Origin: Pseudomonadota bacterium
Lineage (GTDB): Bacteria; Pseudomonadota; Gammaproteobacteria; Burkholderiales; Ferrovaceae
Direction: 5' to 3'
DNA length: 64,000 bases
NCBI GenBank assembly: GCA_021796835.1
Contig: JAKABO010000001.1
Span: 62,001-126,000 of the forward strand
In this document: in pieces, positions 8,756-17,835 of the stretch
How the letters are laid out: the number at the start of each line of letters is the position of its first letter
How positions within the stretch are numbered: position 1 is the stretch's first letter
Program-made: the position numbers and the translations under genes
Notes under the pieces: generated by a model
Seen by the model: only the letters and a program-made list of their open reading frames with translations
What the model was told of the DNA's origin: nothing
The model's database searches: none

Positions 8756-9394
8756 ATGCATATCGAACCAGGTTATATTTCTTCCGCCAAAATCGCCGTG
8801 GCGAACGTGACGGCACTTGGGGTTTTGGGCAGTCAGAGTCTTGCTCTGCTCCGCCAGCCCACGATGGTGATTCGTACCGCCATTGCGGCGGTTTTTTTCA
8901 CTCTGTTCATGCAGATGTACCACCTCCCGGTCGGCCCCTCGGAATTGCATTTCGTCGGGGCCATGCCCATCTACCTCATCTTCGGCTTCGTGCCGACCCT
9001 GTTGGGTTTTGGCCTGGGCCTGCTCCTGCAGGGGCTCCTGTTCGTTCCCACGGACCTCGTGCATTTGGGGGTGAATACCCTGTCGCTGGCCATACCTCTG
9101 GTGCTGCTGCATGGCACGGTGGGACACCGTTTGAAAACGGCCGATCTCAAAACCATTCTCAAACTCGATGCGCTTTATTACAGTGGCGTGACCTTGATGG
9201 TGGGGTTCTGGCTGTCGCTCAGCGAGATTCCCACACCACTTTCGGCCTGGGCCACCTTTGCGGCCTCGTACCTGGTCTTGGTCCTGATCGAACCGGTAGT
9301 GACCTGGACCCTGCTGGTTGCTTTCAAAGGCCATCGGGACTCCCCCATTGCCCGCCACTGTCTCGAGTATCGTGTTGAAGCTCTCGTGCGCTGA
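8756..9394 (+). CDS. cbiM: CbiM-like cobalt ECF transporter S component (energy-coupling factor permease)
   Basis: N-terminal MHIEPG metal-binding start, CbiM-like hydrophobic profile, controlled by B12 riboswitch. Confidence 0.85.
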   Translation: MHIEPGYISSAKIAVANVTALGVLGSQSLALLRQPTMVIRTAIAAVFFTLFMQMYHLPVGPSELHFVGAMPIYLIFGFVPTLLGFGLGLLLQGLLFVPTDLVHLGVNTLSLAIPLVLLHGTVGHRLKTADLKTILKLDALYYSGVTLMVGFWLSLSEIPTPLSAWATFAASYLVLVLIEPVVTWTLLVAFKGHRDSPIARHCLEYRVEALVR

Positions 9395-9447: not shown

Positions 9448-10245
9448 ATGGCAGGTAAGGTATGGTTCGTTGGGGCGGGCCCCGGGGATCCCGAACTTCT
9501 GACCTTCAAGGGGGTGAAGTTGCTGCAGCAGGCAGATGCCATCCTGTATGCAGGGTCTCTGGTGAATGAAGCGGCCACCCGTTACGCGCCCAGCCACTGC
9601 GAAATCCGGGATTCCAAGGGCATGACTTTGGAAGAGATTACCGCGTGGCTGATCGAACAGACGGCTCGCCACGTCACCGTGATTCGCCTCCAGACGGGAG
9701 ATCCCGGGCTCTATGGCGCATTGGTGGAAATGGTGCGGGCGTTGGACGAGGCTCGGGTCGAGTGGTCGGTGGTGCCCGGCGTCTCTTCTGCATTGGCCGC
9801 TGCTGCCGCGGCAGGAGAGACACTGACCCTGCCGGAGGTGACCCAGACCGTGATCTTGACCCGGGTGGCAGGACGTACGCCGATGCCTGCCGGGGAAGAT
9901 CTGGAGTCCCTGGCCGCACATCATTGTACCTTATGCCTCTTTCTGTCCATCACCCTCTTTCCCGAGATCCAGCGTGCTCTGCGCGCGGCAGGATGGGCGG
10001 AGGACAGCCCGGTGCTGGTGGTACAAAAAGCCAGTTGGCCTGGGGAAGAAAAGATCGTGCGGGGGACGTTGGCCGATATCCGTGAGCGGTGCCGACGGGA
10101 AAAAATTGGCAGTCAGGCCATGATCATCGTCAGTCCTGCCTTGGGGGCCCGGGGATGGGCCGAAATCAAACGTTCGAAACTTTACGATGGCGCGTTTTCC
10201 CATCGTTATCGCAAGGCAAGCAAGGAATCCGGAGATCTCTCATGA
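9448..10245 (+). CDS. cbiF: (Cobalt-)precorrin-4 C11-methyltransferase
   Basis: KVWFVGAGPGDPELLTFKG, RLQTGDPGLYGALVEM, PGVSSALAAAA; operon context. Confidence 0.95.
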   Translation: MAGKVWFVGAGPGDPELLTFKGVKLLQQADAILYAGSLVNEAATRYAPSHCEIRDSKGMTLEEITAWLIEQTARHVTVIRLQTGDPGLYGALVEMVRALDEARVEWSVVPGVSSALAAAAAAGETLTLPEVTQTVILTRVAGRTPMPAGEDLESLAAHHCTLCLFLSITLFPEIQRALRAAGWAEDSPVLVVQKASWPGEEKIVRGTLADIRERCRREKIGSQAMIIVSPALGARGWAEIKRSKLYDGAFSHRYRKASKESGDLS

Positions 10246-11108
10246 AGAATGAAACCATTTTGCTGGTGGGGCATGGTTCCCGGGAACGGAGCGGCAACCA
10301 GGAAATCGAATTCTTTGCGGAACAATGGCGCTGCCGCCAACCTCAGTGGAACATCGAGGTCTGTTTCATCGAATTTGCGGAGATTCTGGTCGAAGAGGGA
10401 TTGAGTAGGGCAGCCCAGCGCGGTGGGCGGGTCGTGGTCGTCCCGCTTATTCTGAATGCGGCAGGTCACGTCAAAATGGAGATTCCGGAGCATATCGAGC
10501 AGGCGCGTCTGCGTTATCCGGCGGTGGAATTCATCTATTGCCCGCATCTGGGGGCGAACACCAAAATCCTGGCGATTCTCAAACGCAATCTGGCCCATGC
10601 CCTGGCCCAATTGGATATGCCGGATCCTCACAACACGGGGATCGTTCTTCTGGGGCGTGGCTCTTCGGACCGTGTGGCCAATGGCGAAGTGGCAAAAATG
10701 GCACGCTGGCTCTACGAGGAAGGCGTTCACCCCTGGGTGGATATCGCTTTTACGGGAATTACCTATCCCCGTCTGGAATCGGTGGTCCAACGGCAGGTCA
10801 AACTGGAGGCGCGGCAAATCGTCGTATTGCCTTTCTATCTGTTCACCGGTACGCTGATCGAGCGCATTCGCCGTCAGGTCGGCGCGCTCGAAGTACAATA
10901 TCCGCAGGTGCGTTTTGCCTTGTCCAGTTATTTCGGGTTTGAGGAGGAGATCTATGCGCTGCTGGAGCAACGAATCCGGGAGGCGACGGATCCCGCCGCC
11001 CAGCACATGATGGAATGCGATGGCTGCAAATACCGTGAATTTTCTGCGGATCATGGACAGGGTGGCCATGTGCACGACCATCCTCCCGTGGTTGCTTCCG
11101 TCCAGTAG
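10242..11108 (+). CDS. cbiX: Sirohydrochlorin cobaltochelatase, CbiX long type
   Basis: ATG at 10242 overlaps the cbiF stop (ATGA); MKNETILLVGHGSRERSGNQEIEFFAEQW; two CbiX halves; C-terminal MECDGC + His-containing tail. Confidence 0.92.
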   Translation: MKNETILLVGHGSRERSGNQEIEFFAEQWRCRQPQWNIEVCFIEFAEILVEEGLSRAAQRGGRVVVVPLILNAAGHVKMEIPEHIEQARLRYPAVEFIYCPHLGANTKILAILKRNLAHALAQLDMPDPHNTGIVLLGRGSSDRVANGEVAKMARWLYEEGVHPWVDIAFTGITYPRLESVVQRQVKLEARQIVVLPFYLFTGTLIERIRRQVGALEVQYPQVRFALSSYFGFEEEIYALLEQRIREATDPAAQHMMECDGCKYREFSADHGQGGHVHDHPPVVASVQ

Positions 11109-11117
11109 GTCCGGGCC

Positions 11118-11786
11118 ATGAAAACTCCGATCATCACCGAACAACTCACCGATGCGGGACGGCGCATCGAACATGATTCCTTTGCCATCGTGGATCGTGA
11201 AGCAGGCCCCCATGCTTACTCCGATGCTCAATGGCAGGTGGTTCGACGCATGATCCATGCATCGGCGGATTTTGACTTCAACGGGTTGACCCGTTTTCAT
11301 CCTCTAGCCATCGAGGCGGGGCTTCAGGCCATTCGAAGCGGGGCGCCCATCGTTGCCGATGTGGAAATGATCTGTGTGGGTCTGTCCAAACCGCGTCTGG
11401 AACATTACGGGATGCAGTCCCACCAGTTCATTTCTGATGAGGATGTGATCGTTCAGGCCCAAATCCAGCACACGACGCGCGCGGTTCAGGCCATGCGCAA
11501 AGCTCGGGCACGACAGTTGCTGGATGGGAGTATCGTGGCCATCGGAAATGCGCCCACCGCACTCCTCGAGATTTTGCGAATGGTGCGGGAAGATCAGGTC
11601 CGGCCGGCTCTGATCATCGGGATGCCCGTGGGTTTCGTCTCTGCGGCCGAATCAAAAAGCCTGTTGAGTCAGAGTACGGAATGCCCCTGGATACTCATCG
11701 AGGGCCGAAAGGGGGGATCCACTCTGGTGGTGGCCGTCCTCCATGCCTTGTTGGCTCTGGCTGAAGTCCACGCCGATCTTTTTTGA
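11118..11786 (+). CDS. cbiC: Precorrin-8X methylmutase
   Basis: SFAIVDREAG, VVRRMIHASADFDF, GMPVGFVSAAESKS motifs. Confidence 0.95.
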   Translation: MKTPIITEQLTDAGRRIEHDSFAIVDREAGPHAYSDAQWQVVRRMIHASADFDFNGLTRFHPLAIEAGLQAIRSGAPIVADVEMICVGLSKPRLEHYGMQSHQFISDEDVIVQAQIQHTTRAVQAMRKARARQLLDGSIVAIGNAPTALLEILRMVREDQVRPALIIGMPVGFVSAAESKSLLSQSTECPWILIEGRKGGSTLVVAVLHALLALAEVHADLF

Positions 11787-11795
11787 ACCGCGTCC

Positions 11796-12905
11796 ATGGA
11801 CAAAAAACCAAAGGGCACGCGCAAGGGATTTACCACCGGCGCCTGCTCCGCTGCCGCCGCCCGGGCAGCGGTACTTGGGCTGATTCAGGGTTCGGTGCCG
11901 GGAGAAGTGGAATGTGACTTGCCCAATGGGGAGAGGGTCCGGTTTGCCGTATCCGAAGGGCAGTCGGATGGTTTTTCGGCCCATGCGGTCGTGATCAAGG
12001 ATGCCGGCGATGATCCGGACGTGACGGACAAGGCCGCACTGACCGCGGATGTCCGGTGGTTGCCGGATGCGCCCGGGGCCGTACGCCTGAAGGGCGGCGA
12101 GGGGGTGGGTACGGTGACCATGCCCGGACTCGGACTGGAGGTGGGGGGGCCTGCCATCAATCCAGTGCCGCGCCGCAACATCGAGGCCAATGTGCGTCAG
12201 GTGGCGCAGGCGGTCCTGGTGCAGCAGGGCCTGGAGGTCTGTATCTCCGTGCCGGGGGGCGAGACTCTGGCCAAGCGGACATTGAATTCCCGTCTGGGCA
12301 TTGTGGGGGGAATTTCCATTCTGGGGACGACGGGCATCGTGCATCCTTACTCGACGGCTGCATTTCGGGCCAGCGTCATCCAGGGTATCGAAGTGGCTGC
12401 CAATCAGGGACAGGACACGGTGGTGCTGACCACCGGAGGGAGAACCGAGAAGTTTGTCATGGGGGCCTTGCCCCATCTGGCTCCCGCCTGCTTCGTGCAG
12501 ATGGGGGATTTTTTGAAATATGCGCTCGATACCGTGGTGAAGTGCAGGATTGCACGGGTCATCATTGGCGGGATGGTGGGAAAACTGACCAAGATCGCCC
12601 AGGGAGAAACCATTACCCACGCGAACCGCAACCCGGTGGACACGGATCTGCTGGCAGAGATTGCGGCCACGGTGGGAGCGCCGGCAGACGTGTGCCGCGC
12701 CATTCGGCAATCGGAGATGGCGCGTTATGCCAGTGAACGGATGGAGGAATTGGGGTTGACCGCAGAATTTTACGAAGCCTTGGGTCAACGGGTGATACAG
12801 ACCTTGTATGGCCGTTATCCGGGGAAATTTGCCCTGCAGGTACTGATGTGCGATTTTGATGGTCATGAACTGGCACGGGTCTCCGGGGAGGATTGGCATG
12901 GATGA
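11796..12905 (+). CDS. cbiD: Cobalt-precorrin-5B C1-methyltransferase
   Basis: RKGFTTGACSAAAARAA, GGETLAKRTLNSRLGIVGGISILGTTGIVHPYS. Confidence 0.96.
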   Translation: MDKKPKGTRKGFTTGACSAAAARAAVLGLIQGSVPGEVECDLPNGERVRFAVSEGQSDGFSAHAVVIKDAGDDPDVTDKAALTADVRWLPDAPGAVRLKGGEGVGTVTMPGLGLEVGGPAINPVPRRNIEANVRQVAQAVLVQQGLEVCISVPGGETLAKRTLNSRLGIVGGISILGTTGIVHPYSTAAFRASVIQGIEVAANQGQDTVVLTTGGRTEKFVMGALPHLAPACFVQMGDFLKYALDTVVKCRIARVIIGGMVGKLTKIAQGETITHANRNPVDTDLLAEIAATVGAPADVCRAIRQSEMARYASERMEELGLTAEFYEALGQRVIQTLYGRYPGKFALQVLMCDFDGHELARVSGEDWHG

Positions 12906-14193
12906 ACCCTGTCTGGTGATCGGCGTACTGGACAACGGCGTGGAGGGATTGACCCCCGCCGCCCTCAAGGGCGTTCAGGAGGCGGATCTGGTCATTGGGG
13001 GAGGGCGGACCCTGGAATTGCTCCGGGCGCTGATCCGGGCCGATGCCGAGTGTCGGGATCTGACGGGGCGTTTGCCCCAGGTTCCCCAGTGGGTCGTCGA
13101 GGCTCGGCAAGGCCATCGGCGGGTGGTGATTCTGGCCAGTGGAGATCCCCTTTGCCACGGTATCGGGGGATATCTGGTGGAGAAATTGGGGCGCTCGGCG
13201 GTCCTCATCGAACCCAACCTTTCCTTGATCCAGATCGCCTGCGCCCGTTTGAAACAACCCTGGCAGACGTTGCGAATGGCCTCCGTGCACAGTCGTGATG
13301 CAGGCGAATGGCGTGTGGGGGCAGGTCCCGAGCATGGGCTCCATGGGGTGTTGCAAGTGCTCGTTCGAGAAAAACTGGTGGGGATTCTCACCAGTCCGGA
13401 AAACACGCCCGGACGGATCGCGCGCATGTTGCTGGCGGAGGGAGTGGCCGAAGATTTTGAGATGGCGGTGGCGGAATGTCTTTTGCAGGACAGGGAGTGC
13501 ATTTACGACTGGATGGACGTCACGGCCGTGTCCCAACGTGTTTTTGCTGAGCCCAATGTCCTGTTGGTGCGGCGTTGCGCCGTTCCGGAGGATCCCTTGT
13601 TTGGTTTGGAGGATGCGCGTTTCGATCAACGCAAACCCGACAAGGGGCTGATCACCAAGCGCGAAGTTCGTGTGGTTTCCCTGGCACGGATGGCCTTGCA
13701 GCGGGACAGTGTGGTCTGGGACATCGGTGCCGGTTCGGGATCGGTGGGGCTGGAGGCGGCCCGGTTGTGTGTGCAGGGTCACGTTTATGCCATCGAGAAA
13801 AACACGGAGGATGCGGCCATCATCCTCAGAAATCGGGCCAGTTTACGGGTGACCAATTACACCCTGAGGCAGGGAAAAGCTCCGGAGGGCCTGGCGGAAT
13901 GGCCCGATCCTGATGCCATATTCATCGGTGGTTCGGGGGGCGAACTGCGCGAGTTGATCCTGCTCTGCCTGGAAAGACTGCGTCCGGGTGGGCATCTGGT
14001 GATGAACTTCGCCACCCTGGAAAATTTGGGCACGGCTCTGGACTGTCTGGCGGCTTCTGCCACCGTGTGGGACGTCACTCAACTGCAGGCGGCGCGGAGT
14101 CGCCCCATTCTGGAGATGCATCGTTTGCAGGCCGAAAATCCGGTCTGGATCCTGTGCGCCGAAAAGTCGGTGCCTGCGGTGGGCAGTCCATGA
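12898..14193 (+). CDS. cobL: Fused CbiE-CbiT (CobL-type) precorrin-6Y/7 C5,15-methyltransferase (decarboxylating)
   Basis: N-terminal tetrapyrrole methylase + C-terminal SAM methyltransferase (DIGAGSGSVGLEAARL); start overlaps the cbiD end. Confidence 0.93.
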   Translation: MDEPCLVIGVLDNGVEGLTPAALKGVQEADLVIGGGRTLELLRALIRADAECRDLTGRLPQVPQWVVEARQGHRRVVILASGDPLCHGIGGYLVEKLGRSAVLIEPNLSLIQIACARLKQPWQTLRMASVHSRDAGEWRVGAGPEHGLHGVLQVLVREKLVGILTSPENTPGRIARMLLAEGVAEDFEMAVAECLLQDRECIYDWMDVTAVSQRVFAEPNVLLVRRCAVPEDPLFGLEDARFDQRKPDKGLITKREVRVVSLARMALQRDSVVWDIGAGSGSVGLEAARLCVQGHVYAIEKNTEDAAIILRNRASLRVTNYTLRQGKAPEGLAEWPDPDAIFIGGSGGELRELILLCLERLRPGGHLVMNFATLENLGTALDCLAASATVWDVTQLQAARSRPILEMHRLQAENPVWILCAEKSVPAVGSP

Positions 14194-14984
14194 GCGCGCG
14201 GACTTACGGACGGCTGTATGGCGCCTCCCTGGGCCCGGGGGATCCGGGTTTGATCACCCGGCAGGTTTGGGCGTTGCTGCAACGGGAGGACCTCTATTGG
14301 ACCTATCCGGTGCGTCGCAAGGGCGCAGACAGTCATGCACTCGGCATCGTCCAGCGTGCCGGACGGGCGTTACCCGGCACAGGGGGCGCGCTGATTTTTC
14401 CCATGACCCACGATCCGGAAATTCTGGCCGGTTACTGGTTGCGGGCTGCGGAAGCGGTACTCGAGCAGTTACGAACGGGGCAGGATGTCGTGTTTCTGGT
14501 CGAGGGAGATGCTTCGACCTACTCCACCTTTGGTCACTTGTCCCGGACCGTACGGGCCCTGGAAGCGGAAGTGGTCATCGAAACTCTGCCCGGGGTTTCC
14601 TCCTACCATGCGGCGGCGGCCACTGTGGGCATGCCGCTGGCCGAAACGGATGAAACCATCGCCATCATTCCGGCCAGTTATGGGATCGATATGATCGAGC
14701 GTCTGTTGCTGGATTTCGATACCCTGGTTTTGCTCAAGGTCAAACCCCTGCTGGACGACATTCTGGACCTTCTCGAACGGCGTGACTTGTTGGCCCATGC
14801 GGCGTTCATCGAAAAGGCGGGCACGCCCCTGGAACGAGTGGAACGTGCGCTCACCCGTTTGCGCGGGCATAAGGTCAACTATCTATCCTTGATGCTGGTG
14901 CGTAACCCGGCGCGGGTGCGCGGGACGATCCTGCGCGGTTGCCGAAAAAAATCCTCTCTTCTGGATACTTCTGTTCATGAATAA
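14190..14984 (+). CDS. cbiL: Precorrin-2/cobalt-factor II C20-methyltransferase
   Basis: ATG at 14190 overlapping the previous stop; LYGASLGPGDPGLITRQVWALLQ, FLVEGDASTYSTFGHL. Confidence 0.94.
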   Translation: MSARTYGRLYGASLGPGDPGLITRQVWALLQREDLYWTYPVRRKGADSHALGIVQRAGRALPGTGGALIFPMTHDPEILAGYWLRAAEAVLEQLRTGQDVVFLVEGDASTYSTFGHLSRTVRALEAEVVIETLPGVSSYHAAAATVGMPLAETDETIAIIPASYGIDMIERLLLDFDTLVLLKVKPLLDDILDLLERRDLLAHAAFIEKAGTPLERVERALTRLRGHKVNYLSLMLVRNPARVRGTILRGCRKKSSLLDTSVHE

Positions 14985-15720
14985 TATGACTACTCCCCAT
15001 GTCGCGCTTGTTGCGATTACCAAACATGGTCTGGCTCGCGCCCTGACCCTGCTGCCCCGATTGCCCGAGGCCCATCTTGTGGTGACGGAGAAATTCGCTC
15101 CAGATCTTCCGCCGGCGTTGCCCCATCCGGTCAGGATCCTGTCCGGGGCGTTGAGCGGTCATATGGCGGACCTGTTTTCTGACTACGGTCAACTGGTTCT
15201 GTTCATTTCCCTGGGCGCCGTGGTGCGTCTGATGGCTCCTCACCTCAAATCCAAGGATGAAGACCCCGGGGTGGTGGTGATCGATGATGCGGCCCGCTAT
15301 GTGATTCCCGTCCTGTCGGGGCATGTAGGAGGGGCCAATGCTTTTGCCTTGCATCTGGCCGAACTGCTGGGCGCCGAAGCCGTCCTGACCACTGCATCCG
15401 ATGTGGGGAAAACCATCCCCGTGGACATTCTGGGACGCGAACTGGGTTGGCAGGTAGAGGCACCCAAGATCAACATTACCCGGGTTTCGGCCCATGTGGT
15501 CAACGGAGAACCCATCGCTTTCGTGCAGGAAGCCGGAAGCCGGCGATGGTGGACCCGTCCCACCCCCCTCCCTTCCAATATTCATCTATTCGATGCGTTC
15601 GAGCAGGTGGACCTGTCGTCGTTCAAGGCCGTGCTCTGGGTGACCCGGCGGGAAATTTCCGGGTCGGTGTGGGATCGTCTGAAGGAGCGGCTGGTCGTGT
15701 ATCGCCCGCCTCTGGCGTAG
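14977..15720 (+). CDS. cbiG: Cobalt-precorrin-5A hydrolase CbiG, N-terminal/core part
   Basis: HVALVAITKHGLARALTLLPRLP..., FISLGAVVRLMAPHLKSKDEDPGVVVIDDAARYVIPVLSGHVGGANA (CbiG_N), overlaps cbiL. Confidence 0.92.
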   Translation: MNNMTTPHVALVAITKHGLARALTLLPRLPEAHLVVTEKFAPDLPPALPHPVRILSGALSGHMADLFSDYGQLVLFISLGAVVRLMAPHLKSKDEDPGVVVIDDAARYVIPVLSGHVGGANAFALHLAELLGAEAVLTTASDVGKTIPVDILGRELGWQVEAPKINITRVSAHVVNGEPIAFVQEAGSRRWWTRPTPLPSNIHLFDAFEQVDLSSFKAVLWVTRREISGSVWDRLKERLVVYRPPLA

Positions 15721-15724
15721 CGGG

Positions 15725-16123
15725 ATGAAAGTCATGGTGGGCGTGGGATGCGATCGGGACGTGGCGTTTGCCACCCTGAGCGAAGGCGTGCTGTTGGGCC
15801 TCCAGCGGGTTGGGCTGACGGAACGTGCCGTCGTCGGTCTGGCGACCATCGACAAAAAGAACGATGAAGCGGCCGTGCTGGCATTGGCCGAGGCGAAAGG
15901 CTGGCCGTTATTCTTTTTTGATGCGGCACAACTGTCCCGAGTCACCGTCCCCAATCCTTCGGAGACGGTGCGCCGGTATATGGGAACCCCGGCGGTGTCT
16001 GAAGCCGCCGCATTATTGGCGGCGGGGGTTGGAGTGGAAGGTCTGATCCTGGAAAAATTCAAACATCGTGGCGCGGACCGGAAACATGCCACGGTGTCCA
16101 TTGCACTCATGAAAGAGAATTGA
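15725..16123 (+). CDS. CbiG C-terminal domain / CobE-like protein encoded as a separate ORF
   Basis: GVGCDRDVAFATL, LATIDKKNDEAAVLALAEAKGWPLFFF; 4-bp gap after cbiG core. Confidence 0.88.
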   Translation: MKVMVGVGCDRDVAFATLSEGVLLGLQRVGLTERAVVGLATIDKKNDEAAVLALAEAKGWPLFFFDAAQLSRVTVPNPSETVRRYMGTPAVSEAAALLAAGVGVEGLILEKFKHRGADRKHATVSIALMKEN

Positions 16124-17485
16124 ATGAAAACAGGAAAAATATTGATGGTGGGTTTTGGCCCCGGCGCCACGGAACATATGACCTATCGTGCGCGCGCGGC
16201 CATTGCCGAGGCGGACGTGGTCATCGGATATTCCACTTACATCAAGCTGGTGCAGGATCTCCTGGTCGGCAAGGAAATCATTCGCAAGGGGATGACGGAG
16301 GAGATCGATCGTTGCGTCGAAGCCTACGAGCAGGCATGCCAGGGCAAGACGGTCGCCCTGATTTCCTCGGGGGACATAGGCATTTACGGGATGGCAGGCC
16401 CCACCTACGAAGTCTTGCTTCAGGCAGGCTGGACGCCGGAAAGCGAGATCAGGGTGGAGGTCATCCCCGGTGCCAGTGCCTTGAATGCCTGTGCATCCCT
16501 GGTGGGAGCCCCTTTGACCCACGACTTTTGTTCCATTTCCCTGTCCGATCTCCTGACCCCCTGGCCGGTGATCGCCCAGCGCCTGCGGGCGGCTGCGCGG
16601 GGAGATTTCGTCATCGCCCTCTATAATCCAAAAAGTGGTCGCCGCACCCAGCAGATCGTGGAAGCCCAACGCCTGCTGCTGGAATACCGGGACCCCGGGA
16701 CCCCCGTGGCCGTGGTCAAATCCGCCTACCGCCGCCGCCAGCATATTCAACTCGTTACCCTGGAAACCATGGCAGACCAGGAAATCGGCATGCTGACCAC
16801 GGTGTTGATCGGAAACAGCAGTACCTTTGTGCGCGCTGGCCTGATGGTGACGCCGCGGGGGTATACCAACAAATACGAAGGATTGACGGGAGAGGCAAAA
16901 CCCGGAGAACAGGCCGGGCGTTCCCTGACCCTGGGGTTGGAGGGCTGGAAGGAGTTTGTCCGGGTTTATCTGCAAACCTATCCGGACCACTCCCTGCGTC
17001 AGGTGGCGGACCATTTCGATGCGCCGTTCGCCCAGATTCTGGAGGCGATGGATGGAACCCCGGAAGACGATGCCCCGGATAGAGTGCTGGCCTGTCACTT
17101 TGCGCCGGCGGAACTCGAGCACCTTCTGCAGGAAATGCATCGATGGGGGAAACTACGTGCAGTGGTGCGCCATGGGGGGGCCGTTGCGGAACTCCTGATT
17201 TATGCCCGGGACTTAACTCTCGAGTCAGGTCGGCTGAATCTGATTCATGAGTATTTTCATCTGCATGTAGATGTGTCCTCGCTGGCCCATGGCTGGTTTG
17301 TACGGCAGGGGACACGTCAGGCCGGGATCTGTTTTACGGATGCGCACGGAGATTTCGTGGTGTCCTTTCTCCTGACCAAGGATGGAGAGGGACGGTGGTC
17401 GGCGGAGGAAGTGAAAAGTTTCTACCGTGCGTCGGCGACGATGGGAACGAAAATGGTCAAGGGAAAAGAAGGAGCAGGCGCATGA
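16124..17485 (+). CDS. cbiH: Precorrin-3B C17-methyltransferase (CbiH/CobJ) fused to a HutX/ChuX-like C-terminal domain
   Basis: N-term about 1-245: ILMVGFGPGATEHMTYRARAAIAEADVVIGY, GDIGIYGMAGP, ALYNPKSGRR; C-term about 265-450 resembles HutX (WGKLRAVVRHGGAVAELLIYARDL...ESGRLNLIHEYFHLHVDVSSLAHGWFV...AGICFTDAHGDFVVSFLLTKDGEGRWSAEEVKSFYRA). Confidence 0.9.
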   Translation: MKTGKILMVGFGPGATEHMTYRARAAIAEADVVIGYSTYIKLVQDLLVGKEIIRKGMTEEIDRCVEAYEQACQGKTVALISSGDIGIYGMAGPTYEVLLQAGWTPESEIRVEVIPGASALNACASLVGAPLTHDFCSISLSDLLTPWPVIAQRLRAAARGDFVIALYNPKSGRRTQQIVEAQRLLLEYRDPGTPVAVVKSAYRRRQHIQLVTLETMADQEIGMLTTVLIGNSSTFVRAGLMVTPRGYTNKYEGLTGEAKPGEQAGRSLTLGLEGWKEFVRVYLQTYPDHSLRQVADHFDAPFAQILEAMDGTPEDDAPDRVLACHFAPAELEHLLQEMHRWGKLRAVVRHGGAVAELLIYARDLTLESGRLNLIHEYFHLHVDVSSLAHGWFVRQGTRQAGICFTDAHGDFVVSFLLTKDGEGRWSAEEVKSFYRASATMGTKMVKGKEGAGA

Positions 17486-17835
17486 GTGAAGATACGGGTC
17501 ATTCTCCGATCAAACCCGCCATTGGGAGTTACAAACGCCACGTATTGGTGTGTACGGGTCCGCGCTGTACCCTGCAGGGAGAGTCGCAAACCCTCTTTGA
17601 CAGCCTTGGAGAAACATTCAAGGCGGCGGGACTCGATAAGGGCGCGCTGCGCGTCAAACGCACCCGGGTGGCATGTTTCGCAGCCTGCAAGGGAGGGCCC
17701 ATTCTCTGCGTGCAACCGGATGGGGTGTGGTATTACAACGTCACTTCAGAGAATCTCGAGCGGATCGTCCAGCAACATCTGGTGGAAGGCAGGCCTGTGG
17801 AGGATCTGGTTTTTCACCAGCAGGCAAGAGATTGA
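17482..17835 (+). CDS. Thioredoxin-like [2Fe-2S] ferredoxin, cbi-operon-associated
   Basis: HVLVCTGPRCTLQG...RVKRTRVACFAACKGGPILCVQPDGVWYYNV; ATG at 17482 overlaps the cbiH stop. Confidence 0.85.
   Translation: MSEDTGHSPIKPAIGSYKRHVLVCTGPRCTLQGESQTLFDSLGETFKAAGLDKGALRVKRTRVACFAACKGGPILCVQPDGVWYYNVTSENLERIVQQHLVEGRPVEDLVFHQQARD

Follow-up and report, generated by a model that had tools for sequence, protein, structure and literature searches.

A ChuX/HutX-superfamily domain fused to the ring-contracting methyltransferase CbiH in oxygen-independent cobalamin operons

The cbi operon and its two-domain CbiH

Our analysis of the window, by which we mean the whole stretch of 64,000 nucleotides, identified a cobalamin operon on the + strand with the gene order cbiF (9448), cbiX, cbiC, cbiD, cbiET, cbiL, cbiG as two genes, cbiH-HutX and ferredoxin, and a cbiM-type cobalt uptake gene lies upstream at 8756. 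The first six genes encode a CbiF-type methyltransferase (9448..10245; PF00590, E=1.9e-47, named from operon order), the CbiX cobaltochelatase with two repeats (10239..11108; PF01903, E=3.9e-47), the CbiC methylmutase (11118..11786; PF02570, E=5.8e-72), CbiD, a marker of the oxygen-independent (anaerobic) pathway (11796..12905; PF01888, E=2.4e-90 at the matching genome position), the bifunctional CbiET methyltransferase (12892..14193; PF00590 and a weak Methyltransf_31 match, named from operon order) and a CbiL-type methyltransferase (14187..14984; PF00590, called CbiL by operon position and similarity across loci). They are followed by the N-terminal and middle part of CbiG (14977..15720; PF11760, PF11761) and by its C-terminal half, a separate gene directly upstream of cbiH-HutX (15725..16123; PF01890, E=1.2e-30). 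CbiX, CbiG, CbiC and CbiD were all found by Pfam, and the presence of CbiX, CbiD and CbiG assigns the operon to the oxygen-independent route. The splitting of CbiG into two adjoining genes (14977-16123) is seen here and in many of the other loci that carry the fusion.

The ORF at 16124-17485 (+) encodes a protein of 453 aa, in which two domains share one reading frame. Its start directly adjoins the cbiG_C stop (16121-16123) and its own stop overlaps, as ATGA in the sequence, the ATG (17482) of a gene for a thioredoxin-like [2Fe-2S] ferredoxin (17482..17835, +; PF01257, E=2.1e-6; NF041612, E=1.9e-13, below its cut-off), a homologue of which takes the same place after the fusion in many loci, of Methylomonas type and others. 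The N-terminal part (residues 1-248; 16124..16867, +) is a CbiH/CobJ precorrin-3B (cobalt-factor III) C17-methyltransferase domain, as the original prediction had it for the first ~245 aa: TIGR01466 (cobJ_cbiH) matches residues 6-248 with 319.7 bits, above its equivalog-domain cut-off of 246.35 bits, PF00590 matches with E=1.3e-36, and the Foldseek matches of the full-length model include CobJ (3nut and 2zvb). A flexible linker (residues 249-263, the TNKYEGLTGEAKPGEQ region; 16868..16912, +) leads into a C-terminal extension, which begins with a conserved helical part (residues 264-309, GRSLTLGLEGW ... HFDAPFAQILEAM; 16913..17050, +) that forms three helices in the model and contains the H297 codon (17012-17014, +). 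This is followed by a ChuX/HutX-type beta-domain with a C-terminal helix (residues 321-440; 17084..17443, +), supported by Pfam, Foldseek, residue tables and hhalign, in which the codons of H379 (17258-17260, +) and H381 (17264-17266, +) belong to an FHLH motif. PF06228 (ChuX_HutX) matches residues 324-433 with E=2.2e-9 and 37.7 bits (cut-off 25), the match that had been anticipated for this C-terminus, and PF05171 (HemS) also matches there (E=2.6e-7, 31 bits, cut-off 24). The idea of an added heme-carrier domain therefore stands, with the correction that the linker/helical stretch ending in HFDAPFAQIL precedes the beta-domain (~321-440) as part of the extension. Matches of the helical part to HTH_TbsP_C and FeoC were weak and below cut-off, and were dropped.

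The full-length model has a pLDDT of 80 and a pTM of 0.51, with the linker (about 250-270) at a pLDDT of about 50. We consequently dropped the idea of fixed docking between the CbiH and HutX parts; on this model, a flexible tether would fit better than a rigid channel.

Fold and conserved residues of the extension

The extension belongs to the ChuX/HutX superfamily, as shown by Pfam, profile comparison and fold. PF06228 matches all 31 full-length fusion homologues, and hhalign against ChuX/HutX proteins of known structure gives a collinear alignment over the beta-domain with a probability of 95 and E=1.7e-8. The structure of residues 264-453, modelled from 16 homologues, was predicted with a pLDDT of 84.8 and a pTM of 0.82, and the significant PDB matches of this model in Foldseek (ranks 1-27, all with E<=3.6e-5) are without exception ChuX/HutX/HemS/PhuS/ChuS proteins or unnamed relatives of that fold, in agreement with the original prediction. 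Since the homologues share conserved sequence from residue ~264 onward, the ChuX/HutX match is far beyond chance.

Among the closest relatives are the cytosolic heme carriers ChuX/HutX (PF06228; PDB 2ovi, 6u9j and 5exv), with Foldseek E values of 1.6e-11 to 6e-8 and target TM scores of 0.75-0.84. The sequences are collinear, including the WG, E356 and H381 positions, but the extension differs from these carriers in being fused to CbiH inside cbi operons, in lacking the GYYN motif of HutX and the GRES/GMDT loop, and in having invariant arginines at positions 345 and 349, where ChuX/HutX have other residues. The HutX/ChuX label is thus right at the level of the superfamily and, to judge from the sequence, too narrow if it is taken to mean a HutX orthologue: the protein scores 24-27 bits against TIGR04108, the HutX equivalog, whose cut-off is 110, and GYYN is replaced, aligning in hhalign with R370 (W in most fusion homologues) and L371. 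We place the axial tyrosine of HutX, presumably Tyr90, in this motif. The fold is also common to HemS/ChuS/PhuS (PF05171), whose F-x-L-H aligns with the FHLH of the extension, although HemS-type proteins consist of two repeats and act on heme, whereas the CbiH extension is a single domain with no redox activity known. ChuX, ChuS and HutX bind heme 1:1 (PMC10404700). The same fold occurs in PDB 3na2, a member of the unnamed LFE_1968-like family (PF22684) from Leptospirillum, another iron oxidiser, and PF22684 weakly matches three of the 31 fusions.

A C-terminal extension of CbiH within an anaerobic cbi operon is likewise present in CbiH60 of Priestia (Bacillus) megaterium, where it is reportedly an Fe-S domain. 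The alignment of homologues of our extension contains no invariant or nearly invariant Cys, which rules out a reading as an Fe-S extension and bears out the original distinction from CbiH60, here compared by its description. We found no papers on a fusion of CbiH/CobJ with HutX/ChuX in the open-licence literature. The architecture is probably already present in domain databases; both the enzyme and the fold are known, and it is their combination for which the open-licence literature gave no description.

Residue conservation was tabulated for 86 representatives of the extension, 68 of which have the HxH of the FHLH motif. In all 68 the residues R345, R349, E356, H379 and H381 are present, and position 297 is either H (34) or Y (34). 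This polar set stands out because the extension is otherwise diverged, with a mean pairwise identity among representatives of 44% compared to 79% for the methylase, and invariance of this kind is typical of a binding or active site. H381 is common to the extension and ChuX/HutX, but R345 and R349 are not, and the set may mark a tetrapyrrole pocket that has been adapted to a ring with cobalt and with more carboxylates. The most likely reading, which we hold with middling confidence, is that the extension forms a tethered pocket that takes up a cobalt-tetrapyrrole intermediate. The enzyme is a ring-contracting CbiH (cobalt-factor III C17-methyltransferase) with a ChuX/HutX/HemS-superfamily domain on a flexible linker, and this domain would have kept the tetrapyrrole pocket of the fold. 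R345 and R349 may grip ring carboxylates, of which cobalt-factor III carries many more than heme, while H379/H381 and/or H/Y297 may face the metal or the ring. In this way the extension could keep cobalt-factor III or cobalt-precorrin-4, respectively substrate and product of CbiH, close to the methylase, hand it over and shield it in cells that meet oxygen. One CbiH-HutX copy that continues into BluB, itself an enzyme of B12 synthesis, also counts in favour of such a pocket.

Alternatively, the ligand might be heme, or a free cobalt-porphyrin, and the extension a sensor through which ring contraction is adjusted to heme, iron or oxygen status. Its membership of a heme-binding superfamily is consistent with this, as are the H/Y at position 297, which resembles the two usual types of heme-iron ligand, and the many bearers that oxidise iron or are aerobes with the oxygen-independent pathway. 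However, the scores below the HutX equivalog cut-off, the replacement by W/R-L of the GYYN motif, the presumed site of the HutX axial tyrosine, and the arginines R345/R349, which are unlike heme carriers, make a heme sensor unlikely. A role in heme uptake is also unlikely, since in most fused genomes the fusion is the only ChuX/HutX match. With the fusion, a heme-carrier fold has been recruited into B12 biosynthesis, at the enzyme that catalyses the pathway's key step, in many proteobacteria that meet oxygen yet use the oxygen-independent route.

Spread and history of the fusion

The fusion had been treated as an oddity of one genome, a view that our survey overturned in favour of a widespread and old architecture. 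TIGR01466 scores above its cut-off in 39 of 375 sampled Gammaproteobacteria (GTDB), and 21 of these 39 carry the extension; PF06228 does so in 32 of 387 sampled genomes of the class, and at least 14 of these matches are CbiH fusions. A scan of genome contigs with a single fusion sequence gave no match, and an alignment was needed as the query. The survey of CbiH-HutX fusions that the original prediction had suggested, carried out in this way on named genomes, yielded 87 fusion loci, which, wherever the flanks extend far enough, always lie among anaerobic-pathway cbi genes. Their bearers include Ferrovum, Zetaproteobacteria (Ghiorsea, Mariprofundaceae), Thiosymbion, Sedimenticola, Thiorhodococcus, Thiomargarita and others, with methanotrophs (Methylomonas, Methylobacter, Methylotuvimicrobium) and sulfur oxidisers among them. 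The best named match to the fusion of the window is in a Ferrovum sp. MAG (L035), with 73% identity in the extension. The Ferrovum cbi operon (9448-17835) may have been received horizontally from elsewhere, since a sample of 200 genomes from the window's own order contained only 4 with the extension, and the other bearers are mostly gamma- and zetaproteobacteria. Two further observations concern single loci: a 704-aa ORF (L028/L061, G557) is a triple fusion of CbiH, HutX domain and BluB (5,6-dimethylbenzimidazole synthase; TIGR02476, 218 bits), and L100, a record assigned by its title to Candidatus Polarisedimenticolaceae (Acidobacteriota), clusters tightly with Sedimenticola sequences, probably through a binning error.

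The extension was gained once, in one CbiH lineage. A tree of 98 methylase rows places all 55 extended CbiH in a single clade (SH-aLRT 97), so that the label requires only one change; this clade is nested in one of 72 (SH-aLRT 98), in which the early-diverging CbiH have no extension at all. Within the extended clade, the HxH has been lost in about five places, with decayed sites in Sedimenticola, the Thiomargarita group and Thiorhodococcus. The decayed copies remain recognisable as this domain (hhalign probability 100), and 9 of 16 match PF06228. In two loci from the window's own order (L207 of G056 and L217 of G782), the linker and helical part are kept and the beta-domain is gone. The repeated decay of the site and the absence of the beta-domain in G056 and G782 indicate that some lineages can do without the extension. 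In an independent-pairs test, the joint loss of the polar residues in decayed copies was not significant, with about five events, too few of them supported.

These losses are what one might expect if the extension had no ligand and only helped CbiH to fold, dimerise or dock with a partner, being lost where unneeded: the polar set decays repeatedly while the fold stays, and ChuX/HutX proteins are dimers or oligomers. The strict invariance of five polar residues and of H/Y297 in a domain with 44% identity argues against this purely structural role, which we think improbable. The named residues offer targets for mutation, and the natural series of intact, decayed, partly deleted and never fused copies offers a means to probe what the domain contributes.

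Absence of CbiJ and a possible redox role

The source genome, which is 99.5% complete and has CbiA/CbiP-type genes, yielded no match to CbiJ (PF02571), unlike the Priestia (Bacillus) megaterium operon, which reads cbiWHXJCDETLFGA-cysG-cbiYbtuR (PMC8123684). Across 53 genomes, CbiJ/CobK (PF02571) is absent from all 35 with a fused CbiH and present in all 18 genomes of the class with an unfused CbiH/CobJ, and with nine further cases none of the 44 fused genomes tested has CbiJ. This pattern could be explained if the extension were a redox enzyme, with NAD(P)H or the adjoining 2Fe-2S ferredoxin as donor of the hydride or electrons that it passes to a bound cobalt-tetrapyrrole, in place of CbiJ or for a reductive ring contraction. 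The overlap of the ferredoxin gene with the fusion and the existence of a CbiH-CbiJ fusion in G228 point the same way, as does the anaerobic transfer of hydride from NAD(P)H to heme by HemS and ChuS, proteins of the same fold (PMC11773379). If true, this would be a heme-carrier fold turned enzyme, supplying the reduction needed by a B12 pathway without CbiJ.

However, among 80 further CbiD-positive genomes from the wider phylum, 45 have CbiJ and 35 do not, and the latter include the nine fused genomes already counted, one (G671) cut by a contig end inside the linker and one (G823) in which CbiH was not found, leaving 24; in 23 of these, CbiH has no HutX beta-domain. In the methylase tree nearly all of the 23 are early branches of the same CbiH clade (G797 lies outside that lineage), so that the loss of CbiJ is older than the fusion and a trait of a larger CbiH lineage. 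The extension is therefore not present exactly where CbiJ is missing, and we rejected the HutX domain as a CbiJ replacement, the 35/35 versus 18/18 pattern being weakened by the unfused genomes and the tree: CbiJ loss predates the fusion and needs no fusion. The NADH-binding residues of the HemS family are, in addition, said not to be well conserved (PMC11773379). We consider a redox function distinctly unlikely, and prefer a tethered pocket for a cobalt-tetrapyrrole intermediate. Nearly the whole sampled CbiH lineage is without a recognisable cobalt-precorrin-6A reductase.

CbiJ/CobK (cobalt-precorrin-6A reductase) is absent from the source genome (G000), G584, G596, G675 and others, fused or not, with the rest of the oxygen-independent pathway present. 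The CbiH-CbiJ fusion of G228 (L165), a 522-aa ORF, likewise joins a C-terminal B12-pathway partner to CbiH, the partner in this case being the precorrin-6A reductase CbiJ and not a heme-carrier fold.
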